Source: a virus. Taken from it: a stretch of DNA of 32,044 nt. The notes below the pieces were generated by a model, which saw nothing but the letters and a program-made list of their open reading frames with translations, made no database searches and had not been told where the DNA came from. Positions 1-28,810 of this stretch are shown here, in pieces (the stretch's first letter is position 1; each line of letters begins with the position of its first letter). The stretch covers positions 3,503 to 35,546 of the IMG/VR virus record IMGVR_UViG_3300038825_001314, one strand, 5' to 3'. The translations under genes were made by a program, and so were the position numbers.

Positions 1-1728
1 GACGGATTGCGCGCTGCCCAGTGAGCCAAATCGATTTGCGCCAGCTTTATCAATTGGCACTACGAAGCGACCAAGAGACTCCTCTGAGAAGGATCCATTC
101 TGTCCAACACCAGCCGACCATCCATCCTCAAGCTTTAACCCTTGTGCGCGCACGTTTTTTCCGTAATTAATTAACCGTCTTAGGTTTCTCAATTTCGCTT
201 GCTGTATTTCAGCAGTGTCTCCCAATGTAGGCAGAGCCATTTGCAAGGCTTCTGCATCTTTGTCAGTTGGTTTGCTTCCCTGAACAGCTACGGCAAGAGC
301 TAAACCAGCAGTTTGATTGAGACTTACTGCGGCAACTTCTTCAGGTAAAAATCTGCGAACCCAAGGTATTTGCGTTAGAAACTCCGCAACTGGATTATTG
401 TTTCCACGCAACGGGTTGTCGCTATCGGCTGCATACAAGGCTTCCATATAAGAATTAAGAACCGCGTTGGCGTCTTCAGGACCGCCGCCGCCACCATCAT
501 CGCCCCCGCCGCGACCTTGTAGATTCAAGTTTGCCACATCGCGATTTGCGTCCGCTCTTATCTGCGCGATGCGCTCTGCCGATTCGCGATCAGCATCCAT
601 CGCCCTCTGCGTCATCCGCGCTTGGCCGACTCCACCTAACGCGGCTCCCAGTGCGCCGAGGATATTGCCGCCCGTGCTCGTTGCCGTGTCCGCTTGTGCA
701 ACCTCCGCAGGCCCACCCAGGAATGCCGCAATCGCGTTATTGACGCGCTGCTCTTGGTTTGCGCGCCTATTTGCTTTGTCCTGCGCGCGGCTTTGCATCA
801 TGCCACCCACGCCCTGTCCGAGTATGCCCAACGCGCTGAGTAGCTCAGGATTGTCACCCAACATACTCAAGATGCTGCGTATTCTGCTTTGCCCCTCTTC
901 GGTTGTGGGCTCCTGTCCTGTGGGCGCTTGCCCCGTTACTGACTGCGGCGCTGGGTTGGTTGTCACTGCGCTGACTCTATCTGTGTCAGAGTTATCGCCC
1001 TGTACGGGATCTGGACGCCTTGCGGGAGGGACTTCTGACCCAACCAAGCCCTGTTCGCGCAGCCTCCTGTCCAACTCGTCCAATTGGTCATTGGACATCT
1101 GGAAGATGTTATCTGAGGGGGGCACCACGCTCCGTGGGGGCGTTGACCTGTCTATGGCATCTAAGTCACTATTGGACATTTGAAAGATGTTGCCTGCAGG
1201 GCTTACGGTCCCAACGCCGCTCGATACATCGGGAGCACCTTGAGGTATTCTGTTCGGGTCAAAGAGACCACGACCCGTCAGTATGTCCCTACCTTCCCTT
1301 GTCAGTAGGTCTGCGCCCGTGCGCTGCAAGTCGTAATCAAACGTCTCTATAGGCCCACCCACTGCGCTGTCAGCAGCCGCAGACCCATAGCCACTACCCA
1401 CCCTATTGCGCTCTCTGGCAGCAGCGTCCACGGCGTCCAGTGCGCCACCACTCTGCGCGACGCTTCTCGTTGCTAGCAGGGAGGTCTGTGGGTCATTGGG
1501 GTTATACCGCAACTGCTCATCCGTTGGGCCTGTGCCATACAGGAAGTCGTATAACTCCATCCGCAGCGGGGAAGTGCCGCGATCTGCGCGCCGCAGGGAC
1601 TCATACCTGCGCCGTACATTCTCTTCCTGTGTAGTGGGTTGGTATAGGCTTGGCGGACGTAAGCCTTCAATTAGCTCAAAGTCCAACATCCCACTAAGTT
1701 TGGGGTCGTAGAATCTAAACTTGCTCAT
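1..1728 (-). CDS. Virion protein, partial (C-terminus beyond base 1)
   Basis: The frame is open from an ATG at 1728 down to base 1 (576 codons) with no stop, so the C-terminus lies outside the window. The product looks disordered in its first half. A short motif, NIFQMSN, occurs twice, 27 residues apart (about residues 179 and 206). Glycine-rich hydrophobic stretches with GxxxG spacing follow (near LLSALGILGQGVGG and NILGALGAALGG). The last part is more globular. The gene lies at the downstream end of the structural operon, after the 116-aa and 1435-aa proteins. By position and composition it could be an ejection or internal virion protein, but I recognise no named family. That it is coding is well supported; the role is inference. 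Confidence 0.75.
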   Translation of the reverse strand, partial: MSKFRFYDPKLSGMLDFELIEGLRPPSLYQPTTQEENVRRRYESLRRADRGTSPLRMELYDFLYGTGPTDEQLRYNPNDPQTSLLATRSVAQSGGALDAVDAAARERNRVGSGYGSAAADSAVGGPIETFDYDLQRTGADLLTREGRDILTGRGLFDPNRIPQGAPDVSSGVGTVSPAGNIFQMSNSDLDAIDRSTPPRSVVPPSDNIFQMSNDQLDELDRRLREQGLVGSEVPPARRPDPVQGDNSDTDRVSAVTTNPAPQSVTGQAPTGQEPTTEEGQSRIRSILSMLGDNPELLSALGILGQGVGGMMQSRAQDKANRRANQEQRVNNAIAAFLGGPAEVAQADTATSTGGNILGALGAALGGVGQARMTQRAMDADRESAERIAQIRADANRDVANLNLQGRGGGDDGGGGGPEDANAVLNSYMEALYAADSDNPLRGNNNPVAEFLTQIPWVRRFLPEEVAAVSLNQTAGLALAVAVQGSKPTDKDAEALQMALPTLGDTAEIQQAKLRNLRRLINYGKNVRAQGLKLEDGWSAGVGQNGSFSEESLGRFVVPIDKAGANRFGSLGSAQSV

Positions 1729-1742
1729 TATCTACCTGTTGT

Positions 1743-2093
1743 TTAATCCAGCATGAAGCTACTGCGAAGGTTTCTTTCAGGTGCGCTTAACATCTGCGTG
1801 CTTGACGTCTTAGGCGAAACCCCGCCAAAGCGACCTGCGCCATACTGCACCGCAAGAGGCGCTAACTGTGCGAGTATGCTCAACCCGCGCGTGGCACCAG
1901 AGGGTGTAGCGGCAACGCGCGCTTGACCTGGAGAGGTGCGGCGGAAGGAAGCAATTGCATCCAGCATAGCCTGCTCTTCCTCTTGACGCTTACGCGCCTT
2001 GTCCATGTCGCTTTGTGCGCTGCGGCCAGCCAAATAGTTTAGTCCTTGACCAACGCCCGTTGAGATGAGTGCTACTGTGAGTGGATCCATCAT
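1743..2093 (-). CDS. Small virion-associated protein (hypothetical)
   Basis: A 116-residue protein. The start ATG overlaps the TGA stop of the 1435-aa gene as ATGA, so translation is probably coupled. Residues 1-23 form a hydrophobic glycine-containing segment (DPLTVALISTGVGQGLNYLAG). A charged helix rich in K, R, E and Q follows at about residues 29-50, then a low-complexity Ala/Gly/Ser C-terminus. The N-terminal segment resembles the glycine-rich hydrophobic stretches in the neighbouring partial virion protein. It sits between two putative ejection-type proteins, so a role in the virion or in DNA delivery is plausible. No specific family recognised. Confidence 0.65.
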   Translation of the reverse strand: MMDPLTVALISTGVGQGLNYLAGRSAQSDMDKARKRQEEEQAMLDAIASFRRTSPGQARVAATPSGATRGLSILAQLAPLAVQYGAGRFGGVSPKTSSTQMLSAPERNLRSSFMLD

Positions 2094-5000
2094 AATCCTC
2101 TTAGGTTTGCCAAGTCGGCTATGAGGTTTTGATATGCGCCAAGGTTGGGAAACCCAAAGGGAATCGCATTGCCCTGCATATCCCTGCGCTGCGTGTTGAC
2201 TCTGGTCAGAATGTCCTCCAGTTGTGCGGGTGTAAGCGCTGTCTGGTCAGGGTTTATGGGGTCAACGGGGTTAGTGGGCGTAGAATTGAAATTAGCCGCA
2301 GATGGGCGCTGGAATAAGCTATTCAACAAAGCTCCTGCATTGGTTGATGACCCACTGAGCATATTGGCGATAGTTTGATTTATTTGGTTGCGCTGATCCT
2401 CTGGCACAGCCTGCGCGAGCGCGATAAACTGACCGATGTTGCGCTCATCAATGAGGCTGGACGCGTCACGGTTTGCTATGTTAGCCGCTTCCAACTGTGA
2501 CGGCATTAGCTGGTTGGCAAAGTTGACCTGTTGGTTAGTCAGCAGGCTCTCTAATGTCTGCCTATCGCCAAACTGCCCCGTAGCAAGATTCTGTTGGAGT
2601 AGGTTGTTGGCAGTGGTTTGATCCATCACGCCTTGGTTGACCAGCTCCTGCAAGGCAGTAGCATTCGTTCCCTGTTGCTGTAAACTGCCGATGTTACCTT
2701 GGTTGACTAACGTCTGTAGCAGCCTATCGTTTGTCCCTTGCGTGCCGATCTGTGAGATAGCCTGCTGACCGAGAATCCGCTGCAGCGCCTCCGCATTTGT
2801 GCCCTGCTGCTGCAATCCCTCAACGTTGCCCTGATTGACAAGAGCCTGTAGCAGCCTATCGCTCGTGCCTTGTGCGCCAATCTGAGAGAGGGCCTGCTGA
2901 CCTAAGATGCGCTGTAGCGCTTGCTGGTTGGTACCCTGCTGCGAGAGTTGGCCCAATGCGCCTTGGTTGATTAGATCCTGCAAGAGGCGCTGGTTGGTGC
3001 CCTGTGCAGCCAACTGCGAGAGGGACTGTCTGCCTAAGATGTTTTGCAGAGCTTGGTCCGCTGTGCTCTGCGCGCCAATCTGGTCCAGCCTATTTTGCAA
3101 CTCAGCCGTAAACTGACCCTCACCCACGCGCGCTTGACGCACACCCTCTTCAAACTGTTCGCGATCTGTCACGCCGCCCTGTAGCAGTTGACGTGACGTT
3201 ACGCGATCCGCCAAGTCCTGCTGCGCTTGCAACTGACGCAATCCAAGGTCAGCAGCAAAGCGCTCATCAGCACTTAAGCGCGCGACATCAGCAAGCTGTC
3301 TATCCGCTATACCAAACTGCTGATCTACATTGAGGCGTTGGGCATCTAAGTCTGCGGCTTGGTTAGCGAGGGCCCCGCGCAGGTCTTGATCGCGCGCTGT
3401 TAAGCCTGCATTCATGGCAGCGATCTGGCCTTGAAGCGAAGATGCTTGATTGGAAAGGCCAGCGGTCAGGTCTTGATCACGTCCCGTTAAGAGCGCCTCA
3501 AGGTTGAGCCTCTGTGCGTCTAATCCTGCCGCTTGATTAGCAAGGGCAACATCAGAATCCTGCTGGCGTCCTGTGAGTATGGCATCTAAGTTCGCGCGCT
3601 GTGCGTCGAGGTCTGCCTGTTGGTTGGCAAGTGCAGTGAGGCGATCCTGCTCGCGTCCACGCAAGCGCGCGTCTGCCTGCGATTCCTGCGCGCGTAAGTT
3701 GGCAAGCTGATTTAGTTCGCCTTCGGTTAGGTCTTGCGCGCGTGCAGCGAGGTTCTGCGTCTCGTTGAACTGCTGCGCTTCCAAATTAGCGCGCTGGTTA
3801 GCTAAAGCGATATCTGCATCTTGAGCACGTCCCGCAAGCGTGGCATCAAGATTCATGCCTTGCGCCTCTAAGTTCGCACGTTGATTTGCAAGAGCGATAT
3901 CTGCATCCTGTGCGCGCCCTGCTATCATAGCGTCAAGGTTCATGCCCTGCGCTTCTAAGTTTGCGCGCTGGTTAGCAAGAGCTACATCAGCGTCCTGCTG
4001 CCTGCCAGACAGAATGGTTTCTAAGTTTAGACGCTGCGCATCCAAATTCGCCAACTGATTCGACTGCTCTGCGGTTAAGTCCTGTGCGCGGCCTGCAATA
4101 TTTGCGTCTAAATTAGCGCGCTGTGCGTCTAAATTAGCTTGCTGGTTTGCGAGAGCGGTCAATCGATCTTGCTCGCGTCCGCGTAAGAAGGCGTCAGCAG
4201 TTGACTCCTGTGCGCGTAGGTTAGCTAATTGGTTGAGTTCTGCAGCGGACAGATCCTGCGCTCTGGCTGATAAGGCCTGCTGTTCGTTGAAGCGTTGCGC
4301 ATCAAGGTTGGCCTGCTGGTTCGCAAGCGCAGCACTAAGATCCTGCCCACGCGCGCCCAGCACTGCTTCCAAGTTGCTTTGGCCTGCCGTGAGATCTTGT
4401 CCGCGCGCCTGCAACCTTTGCGCATCGCCCGTTATGCCGCGACTTGACGCTAGCCCTGCTAGGTCTATAGCAGCTTGCAGGGCTGGGTCATTCTGACTTA
4501 GGGCATACCCTTGAGCCAAGGCATTCAATCGATCTCTGCGTAGGTTTTGGTTGCCCTCCTCAAACACATCCACCGTGTTGCCCGACTGCAGCACGCCCAG
4601 CCTATTCAACTGTGCTATGTCACGCTCACGTTGACGCGATGCTGTGTTCTCCAAGTCTGCCAGCAGTGCAGCTGTCTGCGGATTGCCTGCGCCACCCATG
4701 GCGTTAGCATTCTCTATCCGACCAAGGAGTAGATTGCCAAATTGGGTCTCAAAGTCAGATGCGCCTGCCGTGGGGGCGAACTCACCCAAAGCGATGCGCT
4801 CATTCATGGCATTGAGCGCTGCATTCTGCGCCTGCACATTGCTGTTGTAGTTATTGAGTGCGATGTTCTGCGCTGACATGGTGGGATCATACGCAGCTAA
4901 TGACTGATCCTGCGATGTAACATTGGGATTAAGTGCATTTAAACCGATGGTATAAGCAGTAGCATTAGGGTTAATTGCCGCTAATGACTGATCTTGAGAC

Positions 5001-6397
5001 GCTACATTGGGGTTAAGTGCAGCTAGGCTAGCGTCCTGCGATGTTACATTAGGGTCAAATGCATTTAGGCTGGCGTTCTGCGATGCTACCCCGCTATTGT
5101 AGTTTGCCAGCGCTATGTTATTAGCTGACATGGTGGGGTTAAATGCAGCGAGACTCTGAGACTGTGCCTGTATATTGGGATTAATCGCTGATAGCGATGC
5201 CTGCTGCGCTTGGGCATTGAAGTTTACAGGGTCGAGGTTGACATTCTGCGTGGCGATGGTAGGCGTGAAGCGATCAAGGCCAATCTCGCGCGAGGTAGCC
5301 GCAGGCAAGTTAAACTGCAGCCCTGCATTTGCTATATTGAAATCACGCAGGCCACTTATAGCGTTTTGTCCAAACGTCTCACCCCTACCTATAGCGCTCT
5401 GTATCATCTGCATCTGCTGCTCGCGCAATTCGCGATCCGATGCACCGCCCGTAGCGCGCGCAGCGGCGTCACTAGGGGCACCCGCGTTGGATAACGTCTC
5501 TACGGGAGCAACTGCAGTAGTCGTGGGTGCGGAGGCTACGCGCTCACCCTGCGTAGCTGCCACATTGGTCATCGTGGGCGCTGTTTGTGTGGGATTAGCA
5601 TTTATGGACGCGCGCAGTGATGCGTTTTCCGCTTCCAGTTCCCGCGCGCGCTGCTCTGCTTGATATCTGGGGTCGCTGCCTAATAGGTTCCTGTAGTCAT
5701 CTGAGCCTAAGAAGGTATTAACCTGGTTCTGTATCTCCTGCGGTAGGTCCATCGCGGTAAGGCCACTCTGACTGCGCCAATTACGAATACCTGCGCCCCT
5801 AAAAGCCATAGGGTCGCGGCGTATAGCAGCCATCAACTCCTCACCTGCATCAACTTGCCCGAAAAAGCTATCCAATGCTCCACCGCCCGCTGCAGGAGCA
5901 ACCACGTTAGTGGGTGGAGTGCTTGTGTCTCCACCACCTGCAGGGGTTATACCGCCCATCATGTCCCTAGCTGCCCGACCAGAGCTTGCAAGGGCATCGC
6001 TTGCATTGGGTGGGGGCGGTGACGCAGGGGGTGGTGTGGGTGGAGGAGGGGGTGGTGTGGTTACAGTAGTGAGACTAGTTGGACCCACGCCCGTATCAGG
6101 CCCGCTCGCTACGTTGTTGGTTAGGAAAGGGCGATCAGGTCCAACGCCCATCGTAGGGTTGCTGTTGGGACCAAAGGGACCCGTGACACCTTCGGGAAAC
6201 CCCACTAATGGCTCTCCCGTTCCTGCTGGAGGCGCTCCCATGGGCGCACTGGTATTAGCAGGAGGGGCACTCATGGGCCTGCCCCCAAATAAGCCTTGAT
6301 CTGCCTCTAGAAAAAATTGATCAAACATACTGCGGGGTTGCGTAGTCCTTCTACGTATGCCACCACCTCCGCCTGCATAGCTTCTGCTTATAGCCAT
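2090..6397 (-). CDS. 1435-aa virion protein with three tandem repeat arrays
   Basis: The largest gene of the window. Residues 40-135 are proline/glycine-rich, with a polyproline run near 114-130. Residues 375-535 hold about eleven copies of a 14-residue repeat of the form NPNVxSQDxSLAAL. Residues 660-1030 hold a 29-residue helical repeat, GRAQD-x3-ALANQ-xANLxAQ-xxNLDA-xxA; the adjacent copies near 798-875 are almost identical. Residues 1105-1260 hold a 22-residue repeat, QGTNxRLLQxLVNQG, in alternating forms that make a 44-residue super-repeat. The composition (Gln, Asn, Ala, Leu, Asp) suggests long helical rods. The gene overlaps the upstream tail gene as TAATG. Position and repeats suggest an internal/ejection protein or an elongated tail component; this is inference. 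A tape-measure role is less likely without other long-tail genes. Confidence 0.85.
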   Translation of the reverse strand: MAISRSYAGGGGGIRRRTTQPRSMFDQFFLEADQGLFGGRPMSAPPANTSAPMGAPPAGTGEPLVGFPEGVTGPFGPNSNPTMGVGPDRPFLTNNVASGPDTGVGPTSLTTVTTPPPPPPTPPPASPPPPNASDALASSGRAARDMMGGITPAGGGDTSTPPTNVVAPAAGGGALDSFFGQVDAGEELMAAIRRDPMAFRGAGIRNWRSQSGLTAMDLPQEIQNQVNTFLGSDDYRNLLGSDPRYQAEQRARELEAENASLRASINANPTQTAPTMTNVAATQGERVASAPTTTAVAPVETLSNAGAPSDAAARATGGASDRELREQQMQMIQSAIGRGETFGQNAISGLRDFNIANAGLQFNLPAATSREIGLDRFTPTIATQNVNLDPVNFNAQAQQASLSAINPNIQAQSQSLAAFNPTMSANNIALANYNSGVASQNASLNAFDPNVTSQDASLAALNPNVASQDQSLAAINPNATAYTIGLNALNPNVTSQDQSLAAYDPTMSAQNIALNNYNSNVQAQNAALNAMNERIALGEFAPTAGASDFETQFGNLLLGRIENANAMGGAGNPQTAALLADLENTASRQRERDIAQLNRLGVLQSGNTVDVFEEGNQNLRRDRLNALAQGYALSQNDPALQAAIDLAGLASSRGITGDAQRLQARGQDLTAGQSNLEAVLGARGQDLSAALANQQANLDAQRFNEQQALSARAQDLSAAELNQLANLRAQESTADAFLRGREQDRLTALANQQANLDAQRANLDANIAGRAQDLTAEQSNQLANLDAQRLNLETILSGRQQDADVALANQRANLEAQGMNLDAMIAGRAQDADIALANQRANLEAQGMNLDATLAGRAQDADIALANQRANLEAQQFNETQNLAARAQDLTEGELNQLANLRAQESQADARLRGREQDRLTALANQQADLDAQRANLDAILTGRQQDSDVALANQAAGLDAQRLNLEALLTGRDQDLTAGLSNQASSLQGQIAAMNAGLTARDQDLRGALANQAADLDAQRLNVDQQFGIADRQLADVARLSADERFAADLGLRQLQAQQDLADRVTSRQLLQGGVTDREQFEEGVRQARVGEGQFTAELQNRLDQIGAQSTADQALQNILGRQSLSQLAAQGTNQRLLQDLINQGALGQLSQQGTNQQALQRILGQQALSQIGAQGTSDRLLQALVNQGNVEGLQQQGTNAEALQRILGQQAISQIGTQGTNDRLLQTLVNQGNIGSLQQQGTNATALQELVNQGVMDQTTANNLLQQNLATGQFGDRQTLESLLTNQQVNFANQLMPSQLEAANIANRDASSLIDERNIGQFIALAQAVPEDQRNQINQTIANMLSGSSTNAGALLNSLFQRPSAANFNSTPTNPVDPINPDQTALTPAQLEDILTRVNTQRRDMQGNAIPFGFPNLGAYQNLIADLANLRGL

Positions 6398-17730: not shown

Positions 17731-17893
17731 CGTGTAAATTGTGGTTAATCCAGCTGCGCAAGTACTTGCGGCGCGCGCCTTGCTTTTTCGCGCGCTTGCG
17801 CTTATCTAAAAACACTAGCAGCCCAATCACGGCAAGCGCCAAGAGCTCTGTTTGAAGTATAGCGTCATCATATAGCCAATGTTCGTGCATCAT
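17726..17893 (-). CDS. Small membrane protein (55 aa)
   Basis: 55 residues from the first of two ATGs at 17893. The start overlaps the TGA of the cysteine-rich gene as ATGA. Residues 15-30 are one hydrophobic helix (LLALAVIGLLVFLD), followed by a very basic C-terminal tail (KRKRAKKQGARRKYLR). By the positive-inside rule the tail should be cytoplasmic. One of three single-span small proteins in this leftward cluster. Function unknown. Confidence 0.65.
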   Translation of the reverse strand: MMHEHWLYDDAILQTELLALAVIGLLVFLDKRKRAKKQGARRKYLRSWINHNLHV

Positions 17894-18567
17894 TGATTTA
17901 CACTCCCGTCAAAAAAAGCCTTTGCTTTGTTGGGCGCGCCATGGCCATAAATAGCAATGTCACGCGCGCCTGTACTCGTGCCCGCGCATAATTTACACTC
18001 CGCGCATGTGATGCCTTTAGTGCTATTGGGGCATAAGATTTCGCCCGTCTCTAGCTGCTCGCCATGCCTTAAAATACGAAACGTCCTATATCCTAAATCT
18101 TTCGCTTTTTCGCGCGTCTCGCCATTATTGACGTGGTCTATGCTAGCCATTAAAAGCGCGCTGTATTGCGTGTCTACTTTGTGCCATTGGTGCGTGTATC
18201 CCGTGTGACCTTTTGAGCTATCGACTAGCTCTGTAAGTTTGTCCATCGGTATAAATGCTGGGTCACCATATGCGCCCAAGCGCAGCGGCTTGTCAATCTT
18301 GGGCACGTCCTGCACAGGCTGCGCAGCATATGCTTTTTGAGGCGCGTTATAGCTGACAGGGTTAACATAGCATGAACCGCCTACACTGGCGCGCAGCGGG
18401 CAGTCACCACAGATGATACTGTCTTTCTTTTTCCTTATCGCATCGGTAGCAGTCATGCGCACAGGCAATATCGAAAGTTGCGCCATGTCGCCAGTTTTAA
18501 CGTTTGCCGATTTAGTGCGCACACATGAAAGCGCGCCCATTCTATGTCCATCTGACCAAATCTTCAT
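17890..18567 (-). CDS. Cysteine-rich phage protein (DUF7227-like)
   Basis: 225 residues. Two cysteine clusters are visible: CGDC plus a third Cys at residues 53-66, and CP, then C-x2-C-x2-C at 179-194. Between them are RLGAYGDP (96-103), HTGYTHQW (121-128) and YRTFRI (160-165). The same order of motifs occurs in a family of uncharacterised proteins I recall from phages and plasmids of actinobacteria and alphaproteobacteria (DUF7227-like; the name is from memory). The cysteines probably bind a metal or iron-sulfur cluster. Activity unknown. The gene sits between small membrane proteins in the early leftward operon, where host-takeover or immunity genes are common. Confidence 0.75.
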   Translation of the reverse strand: MKIWSDGHRMGALSCVRTKSANVKTGDMAQLSILPVRMTATDAIRKKKDSIICGDCPLRASVGGSCYVNPVSYNAPQKAYAAQPVQDVPKIDKPLRLGAYGDPAFIPMDKLTELVDSSKGHTGYTHQWHKVDTQYSALLMASIDHVNNGETREKAKDLGYRTFRILRHGEQLETGEILCPNSTKGITCAECKLCAGTSTGARDIAIYGHGAPNKAKAFFDGSVNQ

Positions 18568-26170: not shown

Positions 26171-26668
26171 ATGAAAATCACGCACATTAAAACGCCACTT
26201 AATAAATACACTTTCAAATCACCTAAGATTAAAAGATGGGCAGAGGGCAAATGTGAGGGCTATGTGTTAAACTTATTTGCAGGACAAACCCTACTTGATG
26301 TGAATGAGCATCGGAATGACATAAGGGAGAACATGAGGGCGGATACACACATGGATGCTTTGGATTTTTGCAAAAGTTACAGCGGCAATCTGTTTGATAC
26401 GATTCTTCTTGATCCGCCTTACGCCTTTCGCAAGTCTATGGAAATGTACGAGGGCGCTATGTGCAGCCCGTTTAATAGACTGAAAGATGCCATCATTCCA
26501 ATTCTAAGTGAAAACGGCAAGGTTATAACCTTTGGTTATCACTCAATAAGCATGGGCGCAAAGCGCGGATTTGAAGTAGAAGAGGTTTGCATAATGAGCC
26601 ATGGTGGTGCAATCCACGATACGATTGCAACTGTTGAAAGACGCACTAAATGTCATTCCCCACGCTAA
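26171..26668 (+). CDS. Small DNA methyltransferase (DPPY type)
   Basis: 165 residues with GAGGAG before the ATG. SAM-binding motif I appears as NLFAGQT (34-40) and catalytic motif IV as LLDPPYAFRKSMEMYEG with DPPY at 81-84. That marks an amino-group (N6-adenine or N4-cytosine) methyltransferase. A VITFGYHS segment near 118-125 fits a later core strand. It is short, with no separate target-recognition domain, and is more AT-rich than its neighbours, which suggests recent acquisition. It converges with the integrase gene with a 23-base 3' overlap. Possible roles are protection from restriction or regulation. Confidence 0.7.
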   Translation: MKITHIKTPLNKYTFKSPKIKRWAEGKCEGYVLNLFAGQTLLDVNEHRNDIRENMRADTHMDALDFCKSYSGNLFDTILLDPPYAFRKSMEMYEGAMCSPFNRLKDAIIPILSENGKVITFGYHSISMGAKRGFEVEEVCIMSHGGAIHDTIATVERRTKCHSPR

Positions 26669-27536
26669 ATTTTTCATGCTGTGATTTCACGTTCGATCTT
26701 GCCATGTGCACATAACGTGCAGTCATGGCTTGCGTAGTGTGGCCCAAGATTCGTTGCAAGCTGAAGGGATCACCCCCCGCTTCAATGTAATGCAGGGCAA
26801 ACGAATGCCGCGCGGTGTGTGGAGAGAGGCGCACCCCCTCAATGTTGACCTTCTTGCGCAAGCGTTTAAACATCATCTGCACGCCGCGCGGGGAGAAGGG
26901 TGTTCCCTCCTCTGTGATAAATAGCTCTCTATACTGTGGGCGCGCGTAGCGCTCGCGCTGCTTGAGATACGCCCACAATGCCTTGCGCGTCTTCTTGCTA
27001 TATGGCACGGAGCGCTCCTTCTGCCCCTTGCCATGCCGCACCAATATATACCCCTCCTGCAGATCCACATCCAGCGTAGTAACACCGCACGCCTCTTGCA
27101 GGCGCAGCCCTGTGTCGAAGAGCAGGCGCACTATCGTCTGGTTGCGCAGGCCGCGAAAGGTGCTTGTGTCGAATGCACTCAGGACGGCGCGTATTTGGTC
27201 TGTTGATAGGGGTCGCACGGTAGTCTGCGAAGAGGCTACTTTTGGCAGGCGTATAGCTTCTTTAGTATACCCCTCTGCGTCTAGGAATCGCGTGAAAGTT
27301 TTTATCCCACGCCAGTAGGTGTGTCGCGTTGTGCTGGTCGTTCCGCGCTCCTGCGCCGCGAGGAAGAAGGGCGCGATCCACTCTTGCAGTGCGTCCACGT
27401 CCACGTCCCCTTCCGCTTCTTGCACAAAACGCACGAGCGCGCCAGCCGAATCATGGTAAAAAGCGAGCGTCTTCTGTGTGAACCCGCTAATCTTTTTTTC
27501 TGCGAGGAAAACCTCAAACGCCTTAGATATGCGCAT
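26646..27536 (-). CDS. int: Tyrosine integrase
   Basis: 296 residues from ATG 27536, chosen because AGGGGGG lies eight bases upstream (an upstream in-frame start at 27572 lacks one). An N-terminal SAM-like core-binding domain (ISKAFEVFLAEKKISGFTQK) precedes the catalytic domain. Catalytic residues are all visible: R145 in TGLRLQE, K170 in HGKGQKERS, H240 and R243 in PHTARHS, H266 in LGHTT, and Y275 in ARYVHM. It integrates the phage at an att site, very probably the adjacent tRNA-Val. No excisionase was recognised. Its 5' leader contains an inverted repeat that could hide the ribosome site. Confidence 0.95.
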   Translation of the reverse strand: MRISKAFEVFLAEKKISGFTQKTLAFYHDSAGALVRFVQEAEGDVDVDALQEWIAPFFLAAQERGTTSTTRHTYWRGIKTFTRFLDAEGYTKEAIRLPKVASSQTTVRPLSTDQIRAVLSAFDTSTFRGLRNQTIVRLLFDTGLRLQEACGVTTLDVDLQEGYILVRHGKGQKERSVPYSKKTRKALWAYLKQRERYARPQYRELFITEEGTPFSPRGVQMMFKRLRKKVNIEGVRLSPHTARHSFALHYIEAGGDPFSLQRILGHTTQAMTARYVHMARSNVKSQHEKFSVGNDI

Positions 27537-27537
27537 A

Positions 27538-27598
27538 AAAATACCCCCCTGGTGTGCGCTTGCCTTGAACAAAGCAGGTGCTCTCAGAGGGGTATTTT
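27538..27598 (-). promoter_or_regulatory. Inverted repeat in the integrase leader
   Basis: AAAATACCCC at 27538-27547 and GGGGTATTTT at 27589-27598 are exact inverted copies separated by 41 bases. In the leftward transcript one arm contains the integrase ribosome binding site (GGGGGG) while the other could pair with it. The element can be an RNA switch on integrase translation, or a pair of arm-type binding sites. An 11-base word GCAGGTGCTCT (27574-27584), also found in the tRNA-Val gene, lies in the loop. Confidence 0.5.
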
Positions 27599-27641
27599 CT
27601 TGCTTGCGCGAATTCGCGTAAGTTATTGCGCTGCAGTAAAA

Positions 27642-27718
27642 TGGTGGGCGATGCTGGGCTCGAACCAGCGACCCCCTGCTTGTAAGGCAGGTGCTCTGAC
27701 CAACTGAGCTAATCGCTT
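27642..27718 (-). tRNA. tRNA-Val (TAC)
   Basis: All arms can be drawn: D arm GCTC/GAGC, anticodon arm CCTGC-CTTACAA-GCAGG with TAC at 34-36, T arm GCTGG-TTCGAGC-CCAGC, encoded CCA. The acceptor stem is imperfect: AAGCGAT against ATCGCCC leaves mismatches A1-C72 and A2-C71. Its 3' end faces the integrase, the classic layout of an attachment site in a tRNA gene. It may be the attP copy of a host tRNA, a working phage tRNA, or both. Confidence 0.85.
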
Positions 27719-27787: not shown

Positions 27788-28003
27788 TCACTCGTCAATA
27801 TATAAATCCTTCAGCGCGATCTGCGCGTCTATCAGGCGCTTGAGTTGCATCCGCAGAAAGAGGCGCTCTTCCGCGTCTACTACAGACCACTGCGATAGCG
27901 CTAAGACCGTGTTGGATAGGGTCTGCGCGTAGGTAGATGCATCGCTGAATGTTGTCTCTGCAGGCTCTTCGATCTCTACGAATATCTCTCGCTCGTCGCT
28001 CAA
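27788..28003 (-). CDS. Hypothetical small protein (71 aa)
   Basis: 71 residues from a TTG that overlaps the TGA of the phosphoesterase gene (TTGA) with GGAG seven bases upstream. An acidic head (SDEREIFVEIEEPAETTF) is followed by a helical part with an arginine-rich loop (ERLFLRMQLKRLIDAQIALKD). The frame stays open a little upstream inside the phosphoesterase gene but meets a TAG there. Last gene of the late operon before tRNA-Val. No family recognised. Confidence 0.55.
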   Translation of the reverse strand: MSDEREIFVEIEEPAETTFSDASTYAQTLSNTVLALSQWSVVDAEERLFLRMQLKRLIDAQIALKDLYIDE

Positions 28004-28716
28004 CTCGTCTCCAGTATTGATTTGTCCCAGCGTCCGTTTGTGCGCAATACCATCGGTAGCACTATGGGGTAACTGCCCCAGCTATCAAACCAGTATTGCT
28101 CGCGCCATTTCCACGTAGGCTGTAGGCCGTAGATTTTGTTGGTATCGTGCAGCATCTGTATGGGCAGACCAACGGTCTTGGCTTGGCGCACGGGTATCGC
28201 GTCATGGTTGCCTACCGTGATCGTCATGCGCGGAAACATATCCTGCAATTCGTGCGCTGCCTCACGCGCAGCTATATACTCATCCTCCGCGTTGAGGGCA
28301 TCCGTCTCCGACTCGTGATAGCTGGGCCTGTGGTGATCGAAAATGTCTCCCACGCACAGGACACGCTTGAACTGGTAGCGCGCATCCAGCGCGCGCAGGA
28401 ACGCATACGCGTCTCTGTGCTGATAGGGGAGATGTAGGTCGGGTATGACAAGTGTGTTGCCGCGTTTACTCAAGAGCATCCCGCAGCCCAGTATAGGGCG
28501 CTTGAGGACCATCTTAGAGCCATAGCGCGCGGATGGGGAGTCGGGATCTACCAGGCACCCCGTAGACATAGACCAGCGCAGCTTGCCCTTATCGGCAAAC
28601 CGCTCTATGCCTTGGATAGAGTGATGGTGACCTTGTATAGAATGGTGGGAAAATTTGGTGGCATTGTTGAGTGTATTACTGCTCAGACTATGCACCATGA
28701 GTGTATCTGCTGCCAT
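28000..28716 (-). CDS. Calcineurin-like metallophosphoesterase, circularly permuted order
   Basis: 238 residues. The catalytic-domain motifs are present in an unusual order. H9 (MVHSLSS) and GHHH (29-32), then GCLVDPDSP and KRPILGCG (up to 79), come first. D93-x-H95 (IPDLHLP), GD (123-124, GDIFDHH) and GNHD (169-172) follow. In the usual phage phosphoesterases DxH, GD and GNHD come first, and GHxH with GCLxD and KRPIxGCG end the protein. The segment here starting HSLSSN aligns by eye with the family's second half. So the protein looks circularly permuted. It likely hydrolyses phosphoesters using two metals; substrate unknown. It lies in the late operon next to tRNA-Met. Confidence 0.8.
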   Translation of the reverse strand: MAADTLMVHSLSSNTLNNATKFSHHSIQGHHHSIQGIERFADKGKLRWSMSTGCLVDPDSPSARYGSKMVLKRPILGCGMLLSKRGNTLVIPDLHLPYQHRDAYAFLRALDARYQFKRVLCVGDIFDHHRPSYHESETDALNAEDEYIAAREAAHELQDMFPRMTITVGNHDAIPVRQAKTVGLPIQMLHDTNKIYGLQPTWKWREQYWFDSWGSYPIVLPMVLRTNGRWDKSILETS

Positions 28717-28736
28717 GCCTGCCCCCTATTAGTTTA

Positions 28737-28810
28737 TGGAGGCGGGGGCGCGAGTCGAACGCGCAACTTGGGGTAATGAGCCCCATATGATACCCTTTCA
28801 CTACCCCGCT
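28737..28810 (-). tRNA. tRNA-Met (CAT), initiator-like
   Basis: Arms: acceptor AGCGGGG/CCCCGCC with an A1-C72 mismatch, D arm GTGA/TCAT, anticodon arm TGGGG-CTCATTA-CCCCA, T arm GCGCG-TTCGACT-CGCGC, encoded CCA. Two hallmarks of bacterial initiator tRNA are present: an unpaired 1-72 position and three G-C pairs (GGG/CCC) next to the anticodon loop. A11-T24 of initiators is not present (T11-A24). The T loop is elongator-like. It may be an unusual initiator or an elongator with a GC-rich anticodon stem. Confidence 0.85.

Follow-up and report, generated by a model that had tools for sequence, protein, structure and literature searches.

The stretch of DNA analysed here (hereafter the window; 32,044 nt, positions 3503-35546 of a 35.5-kb virus record assembled from environmental sequence) encodes a metallophosphoesterase (MPE) in which two adjacent parts of the chain have changed places: its block order is B-A-C, against A-B-C in its linear relatives. 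The gene (28000..28716, minus strand, stop included) has an ATG start and encodes 238 aa. We read the product as a working calcineurin-like MPE with a rewired chain, in which blocks A and B have been exchanged and block C has been left at the C-terminus, and assign this reading a probability of about 0.78. The three blocks would come together in the usual MPE fold around a two-metal site, and the enzyme would cleave phosphodiesters, likeliest in DNA, during phage DNA metabolism. Within a known enzyme superfamily, we rate the protein as a topological variant that is new, and apparently a rare natural instance of chain rewiring that has left the fold of an enzyme intact.

A ribosome-binding-like AGGGGG (28722..28727, minus strand), read directly from the sequence, lies 5 nt upstream of the ATG. 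An in-frame TAG three codons upstream closes the frame before the start, so that no missing half lies upstream in that frame, and the gene occurs in a single copy in the whole 35.5-kb record. It is flanked by genes for tRNA-Val (27642-27718) and, on its other side, tRNA-Met (28737-28810; anticodon CAT). The tyrosine integrase gene adjoins tRNA-Val directly (the two span 26646-27718 of the window), and an integrase beside a tRNA gene is the usual layout of a tRNA attachment site. With genes for this integrase, a repressor-like regulator, terminase, major head protein, endolysin and tail fibre, the virus, a phage, looks temperate. Elsewhere in the window, a 1435-aa protein (2090-6397, minus strand) consists mostly of degenerate repeats such as LANQRANLDAQ, has no Pfam match and is encoded by a gene containing tandem DNA repeats of 87 and 42 bases, and a 225-aa protein (17890-18567, minus strand) strongly matches PHROG_2554 (E 6.9e-52), a family of unknown function.

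All five ligand motifs of the MPE superfamily (DxH, GDxxD, GNH, H and GHxH) are present in the window protein, and their order along the chain is IV-V-I-II-III instead of I-II-III-IV-V. Block B (aa 1-82; 28471..28716, minus strand), delimited by a profile of linear proteins and by PHROG_221, carries H9 of motif IV, H30 and H32 of motif V within GHHH (aa 29-32), GCLVD (aa 53-57) and KRPILGCG (aa 72-79); in linear relatives it comes after block A. Block A (aa 83-213; 28078..28470, minus strand), N-terminal in linear relatives and recognised by the same profile and by PF00149, holds D93 and H95 of motif I (DLH, aa 93-95), D124 and D127 of motif II (GD, aa 123-124) and N170 and H171 of motif III (GNHD, aa 169-172). 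Block C (aa 214-238; 28003..28077, minus strand), placed by the profile and by BLASTP matches to the tail, comprises the last beta-strand (PIVLPMVL) and a GRW tail, and forms the C-terminus in permuted and linear proteins alike. The preliminary description had placed GHHH, GCLVD and KRPILGCG ahead of DLH, GD and GNHD, and the motif positions in the 238-aa reading frame bear this out; it had also put the new ends near a metal-binding position, and the new N-terminus indeed lies just before the motif-IV residue H9.

The calcineurin-like MPE superfamily profile PF00149 matched aa 88-207, with motifs I-III only, at 27.2 bits (cut-off 21.5). PHROG_221 matched the whole protein (E 2.2e-36) in two stretches that are not collinear, aa 1-81 aligning with its positions 266-334 and aa 87-238 with positions 114-243; searched singly, both halves were significant (E 4.3e-9 and 1.3e-26). 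By BLASTP against the linear relative L001, aa 87-226 matched the N-terminal part (40% identity over 140 aa, E 4e-35) and aa 3-83 the C-terminal part (56% over 81 aa, E 1e-30). These separate matches uphold the earlier claim that roughly the first 80 residues resemble the second half of the family and the remainder its first half, with breakpoints about where they had been put.

Block order was tested with a profile built exclusively from linear proteins and scored on native, rotated and block-exchanged sequences. On the native chain, block A (aa 88-210) aligned with profile positions 2-124 (140.6 bits), block B (aa 4-83) with positions 131-209 (72.3 bits) and block C (aa 215-234) with positions 210-229 (10.0 bits). 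A check for collinear motifs by profile, set beforehand as the refutation of the reordering, was thus run, and the motifs were not collinear. With the blocks put in canonical order, the profile aligned colinearly in a single match (255.6 bits, positions 2-229), and the best cuts for the exchange fell after aa 82 and after aa 213. The best pure rotation reached 140.9 bits, no gain over the native chain. The A+B core is therefore permuted with C in place; since B-A-C is no rotation of A-B-C, the change is a non-cyclic exchange of two adjacent blocks, and the strict definition of circular permutation does not apply. Of the earlier term 'circularly permuted', the reordering stands and the circularity does not, as aa 214-238 stay C-terminal.

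The arrangement recurs in other viruses. IMG/VR was covered by two junction-pattern scans and later homology scans, and block order was checked with separate A and B profiles. Besides the window, 31 contigs from 28 metagenomes carry B-A in one open reading frame (32 with the window, counted by contig name), which settles that the natural reordering proposed in the preliminary description is real; the remaining fetched IMG/VR loci were A-B or fragments. The permuted relatives share joints and frame, down to about 40% identity. In tblastn against phage records, no single place covered at least 80% of the window query, and plasmids gave no match to the permuted MPE. GTDB genome contigs yielded five loci: four are linear, and the fifth, where its contig ends, is a fragment with block A only. 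Providencia phage PS3 and Pseudomonas phage Bf7, considered as permuted isolates from tblastn matches covering query residues 55-213 in one piece, were rejected: both encode linear proteins, and chance extension into the N-terminal regions of these accounts for the additional 20-30 aa of the matches.

The window protein was modelled with AF2 as a single chain from an input of 52 rows, made up of 12 natural permuted chains and of linear homologues cut into separate A and B pieces. The model had a pLDDT of 89.5 and a pTM of 0.89, and the mean pLDDT of the blocks around the joints (aa 81-90 and 211-220) was 95 and 96 or 93. The linear relative L053 was modelled with a pLDDT of 83.5 and a pTM of 0.84. 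Helices and strands of the two models correspond one to one, in B-A-C and A-B-C order respectively, and the joints are located in loops between beta-strands of both. A BFVD model made by others (A0A516M849) superposed on the window model over 233 columns (TM 0.94, rmsd 1.5, 55% identity), and linear phage MPEs, lower among the BFVD matches, fitted well over only about 120 columns. BFVD also holds two separate proteins of Escherichia phage K1E (A0A2I4Q1Y4 and A0A2I4Q1Z7, 237 and 104 aa), each matching part of the MPE model, and the MPE gene may be split in that phage.

Against solved structures, the L053 model aligned over its whole length with LpxH, PolD DP1 and YfcE (Z 13-14; Foldseek E 4e-7). 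The permuted model matched solved MPE structures partially (Z up to 6.1, mostly aa 84-232), and its best listed Foldseek E value against the PDB was 0.027, with MPE halves mixed with unrelated GTPases, a list that says little by itself. Such half-matches are expected of rewired connectivity, because sequential aligners cannot place block B as well. On LpxH the alignment of the permuted model ran from residue 2 to about residue 242 (ends 240-245); this span equals that of the linear model and so suggests that block C is predicted in its usual place in the fold. A sequence search of the PDB with the family profiles returned no relative.

Across nine metal-ligand columns, all 14 permuted and all 66 linear proteins agreed, one D to E change at the second motif-II acid being the sole exception. 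This conservation, with the confident AF2 fold, provides an indirect test of whether GHHH lies at the metal site, the other point that the preliminary description had named as a refutation. The permuted set comprised 14 distinct sequences after clustering of the tree set at 93% identity; L220 and L221 were added later and are unclustered. Permuted pairs with moderate dS gave dN/dS values of 0.033 (L072-L096), 0.047 (L113-L114) and 0.089 (L010-L102). Two pairs with near-saturated dS gave 0.044 and 0.055, one near-identical pair with very few changes gave 0.26, and the ratio was incomputable in four distant pairs, the window pair among them. Codon comparison thus indicates purifying selection on the permuted lineages.

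Phosphodiesterase activity is likely. Nucleic acid is the likeliest substrate, at roughly even odds, and a nuclease function in phage DNA metabolism is probable. Four lines point to DNA. In permuted relatives the neighbouring genes encode primase-helicase, family A DNA polymerase, 5'-3' exonuclease, phage endonuclease I and ribonucleotide reductase. The linear proteins L015 and L022 have a helix-turn-helix (HTH) match at the N-terminus. In NCBIfam, the motif I-III half weakly resembles the endonuclease PdeM (TIGR04123; E 0.0011, 18.4 bits against a cut-off of 150; E 1e-4 for L041). Lastly, the phage MPE Gp48 of mycobacteriophage A10ZJ24 degrades DNA and hydrolyses bis-pNPP, as shown experimentally (PMC12287305). 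For YfcE (TIGR00040, cut-off 56.25 bits) the window protein was not listed, and L053 (19.6 bits) and L019 (20.9 bits) were both below the cut-off; among PADLOC anti-phage defence profiles no family matched at E 0.1. The window gene itself lies between two tRNA genes near an integrase, outside any replication module, so its role in the window phage may differ. The permuted MPE of L220 (2317-3195, plus strand) has an extra N-terminal CxxC...CxxC, zinc-ribbon-like with weak Pfam support.

Several other readings were weighed against the block exchange. Because the record was assembled from environmental sequence, an assembly error or chimeric contig had to be considered; the same order, joints and frame in the 31 other contigs rule this out, and a viral protein model of the same topology exists in BFVD (A0A516M849), which leaves it a negligible chance. 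If the whole domain had been circularly permuted in the strict sense, and the C strand re-derived or fused later, the event would have followed the usual route to permuted proteins, tandem duplication and trimming; in favour of this, too, block C is short and by itself scores just 10.0 bits. We consider this reading improbable, given the gap between rotation and block exchange in the profile test and the LpxH alignment, which ends for the permuted model as it does for the linear one. The GRW tail, moreover, appears in BLASTP as a separate third piece matching the C-terminus of several linear relatives (for NF-1, 16 aligned residues, 56%, E 0.001), and its pattern P..PM.L...G.W (P217, P221, M222, L224, G228 and W230) is invariant in nine permuted proteins.

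In a domain-swapped dimer the halves would complete the fold between chains, and the order within one chain would matter little; this is very improbable, since AF2 models one chain confidently, joints included. The permuted protein could also have ceased to be an enzyme and taken on a binding or regulatory role, a reading that draws on the closeness of the window gene to the integrase and on the precedent of Bxb1 gp47, an MPE-like recombination directionality factor with no phosphoesterase activity (PMC12287305). Against it, the metal-ligand columns are all conserved throughout the 14 permuted proteins, and related phages carry the gene in a replication module with no integrase immediately adjacent, so that we judge it an outside chance. 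A working MPE with blocks A and B exchanged remains our reading.

Permuted and linear MPEs occupy one slot of a T7-like replication module in related phages. In the permuted L030, L068 and L072 the order is exonuclease, endonuclease I, a short ORF, MPE, DUF3310, a short ORF and ribonucleotide reductase (RNR); in the linear L189 it is exonuclease, endonuclease I, an ORF, MPE, DUF3310 and RNR. The common slot fits replacement in place. The RNR gene of L189 (9842-12508, plus strand) holds an intein with an HNH match, and an endonuclease VII-like gene of L130 (5746-7053, plus strand) has an apparent large insertion of a similar kind. As to mechanism, duplication of A-B would have given A-B-A-B-C, a new start within the first B would have given B-A-B-C, and the second B would then have been deleted at a matching beta-turn to leave B-A-C. 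Neither B-A-B-C nor A-B-A-B-C was found among the fetched loci with the A and B profiles, which returned AB, BA and fragments only.

The permutation probably arose once, which is the simpler account. Of the 14 permuted sequences in an 80-row tree, 13 formed one clade (support 100/98) beside the linear L001/L053 clade (87/72). The remaining sequence, L019 (MPE gene at 1551-2255, minus strand, with GWLGD in place of GCLVD), fell outside, and two changes were required in 200/200 bootstrap trees. This placement, together with a highest identity to a linear protein, L131 (50%), favours L019 as a second, independent permutation at the same turns. Yet in a 32-row tree a single clade of all 14 was not rejected (AU p 0.06; halves 0.15 and 0.08), and L019 has a long branch and its joints at the same places as the other permuted proteins, so we regard the second event as rather unlikely. 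A search for L019-like sequences returned L019 itself as the sole permuted protein. It is correspondingly doubtful that phages have made this non-cyclic change of a catalytic fold more than once, at the same beta-turns, replacing the linear orthologue in its own slot and keeping the active site.

Most natural permutations of enzymes have been deduced from comparisons of remotely related proteins. The present family allows a direct test, by comparison of natural proteins, of how the order of a chain can change while the fold retains its active site, because the permuted and linear orthologues are closely related (their halves are 40-56% identical), their neighbours are common in related phages and every metal ligand is kept. 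The case also implies that sequential aligners and motif-order annotation undervalue permuted proteins, as the half-matches of the permuted model among solved MPEs illustrate. The open literature, with subscription journals mostly outside its scope, gave no description of a permuted MPE; the results concerned genome-end permutation or other domains.

Among known systems, the closest are the linear phage MPEs of PHROG_221, such as gp11 of Methylophilales phage MEP301, the phosphodiesterase of Bacteriophage Phi NF-1 and the phosphoesterase of Pseudomonas phage Bf7. They share homologous halves, the GRW tail and the ligand motifs with the window protein, and permuted and linear forms have common neighbours in related phages, but they are A-B-C where the window protein is B-A-C. 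LpxH, YfcE and PolD DP1, which the linear L053 model matches over its whole length, are matched by the permuted model in part and in a different chain order, and sequence similarity is undetectable. Gp48 of A10ZJ24 is likewise a phage MPE with five motifs, but no permutation is reported for it (PMC12287305). PdeM, the ligase-associated DNA damage response endonuclease with the weak motif I-III likeness, is linear, and the window protein is far below its cut-off. Natural changes of block order within one fold are also seen in phage DNA adenine methylases, which exist with and without circular permutation (PMC7824862), and between AML1/CBF and riboflavin synthase, a non-cyclic example aligned over 42 residues in otherwise dissimilar proteins (PMC2096629). 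Natural non-cyclic permutations have been described as little studied, one structural example being termed 'possibly naturally occurring' (PMC2096629). Unlike AML1/CBF and riboflavin synthase, the permuted and linear MPEs are recognisable orthologues with a common gene order.
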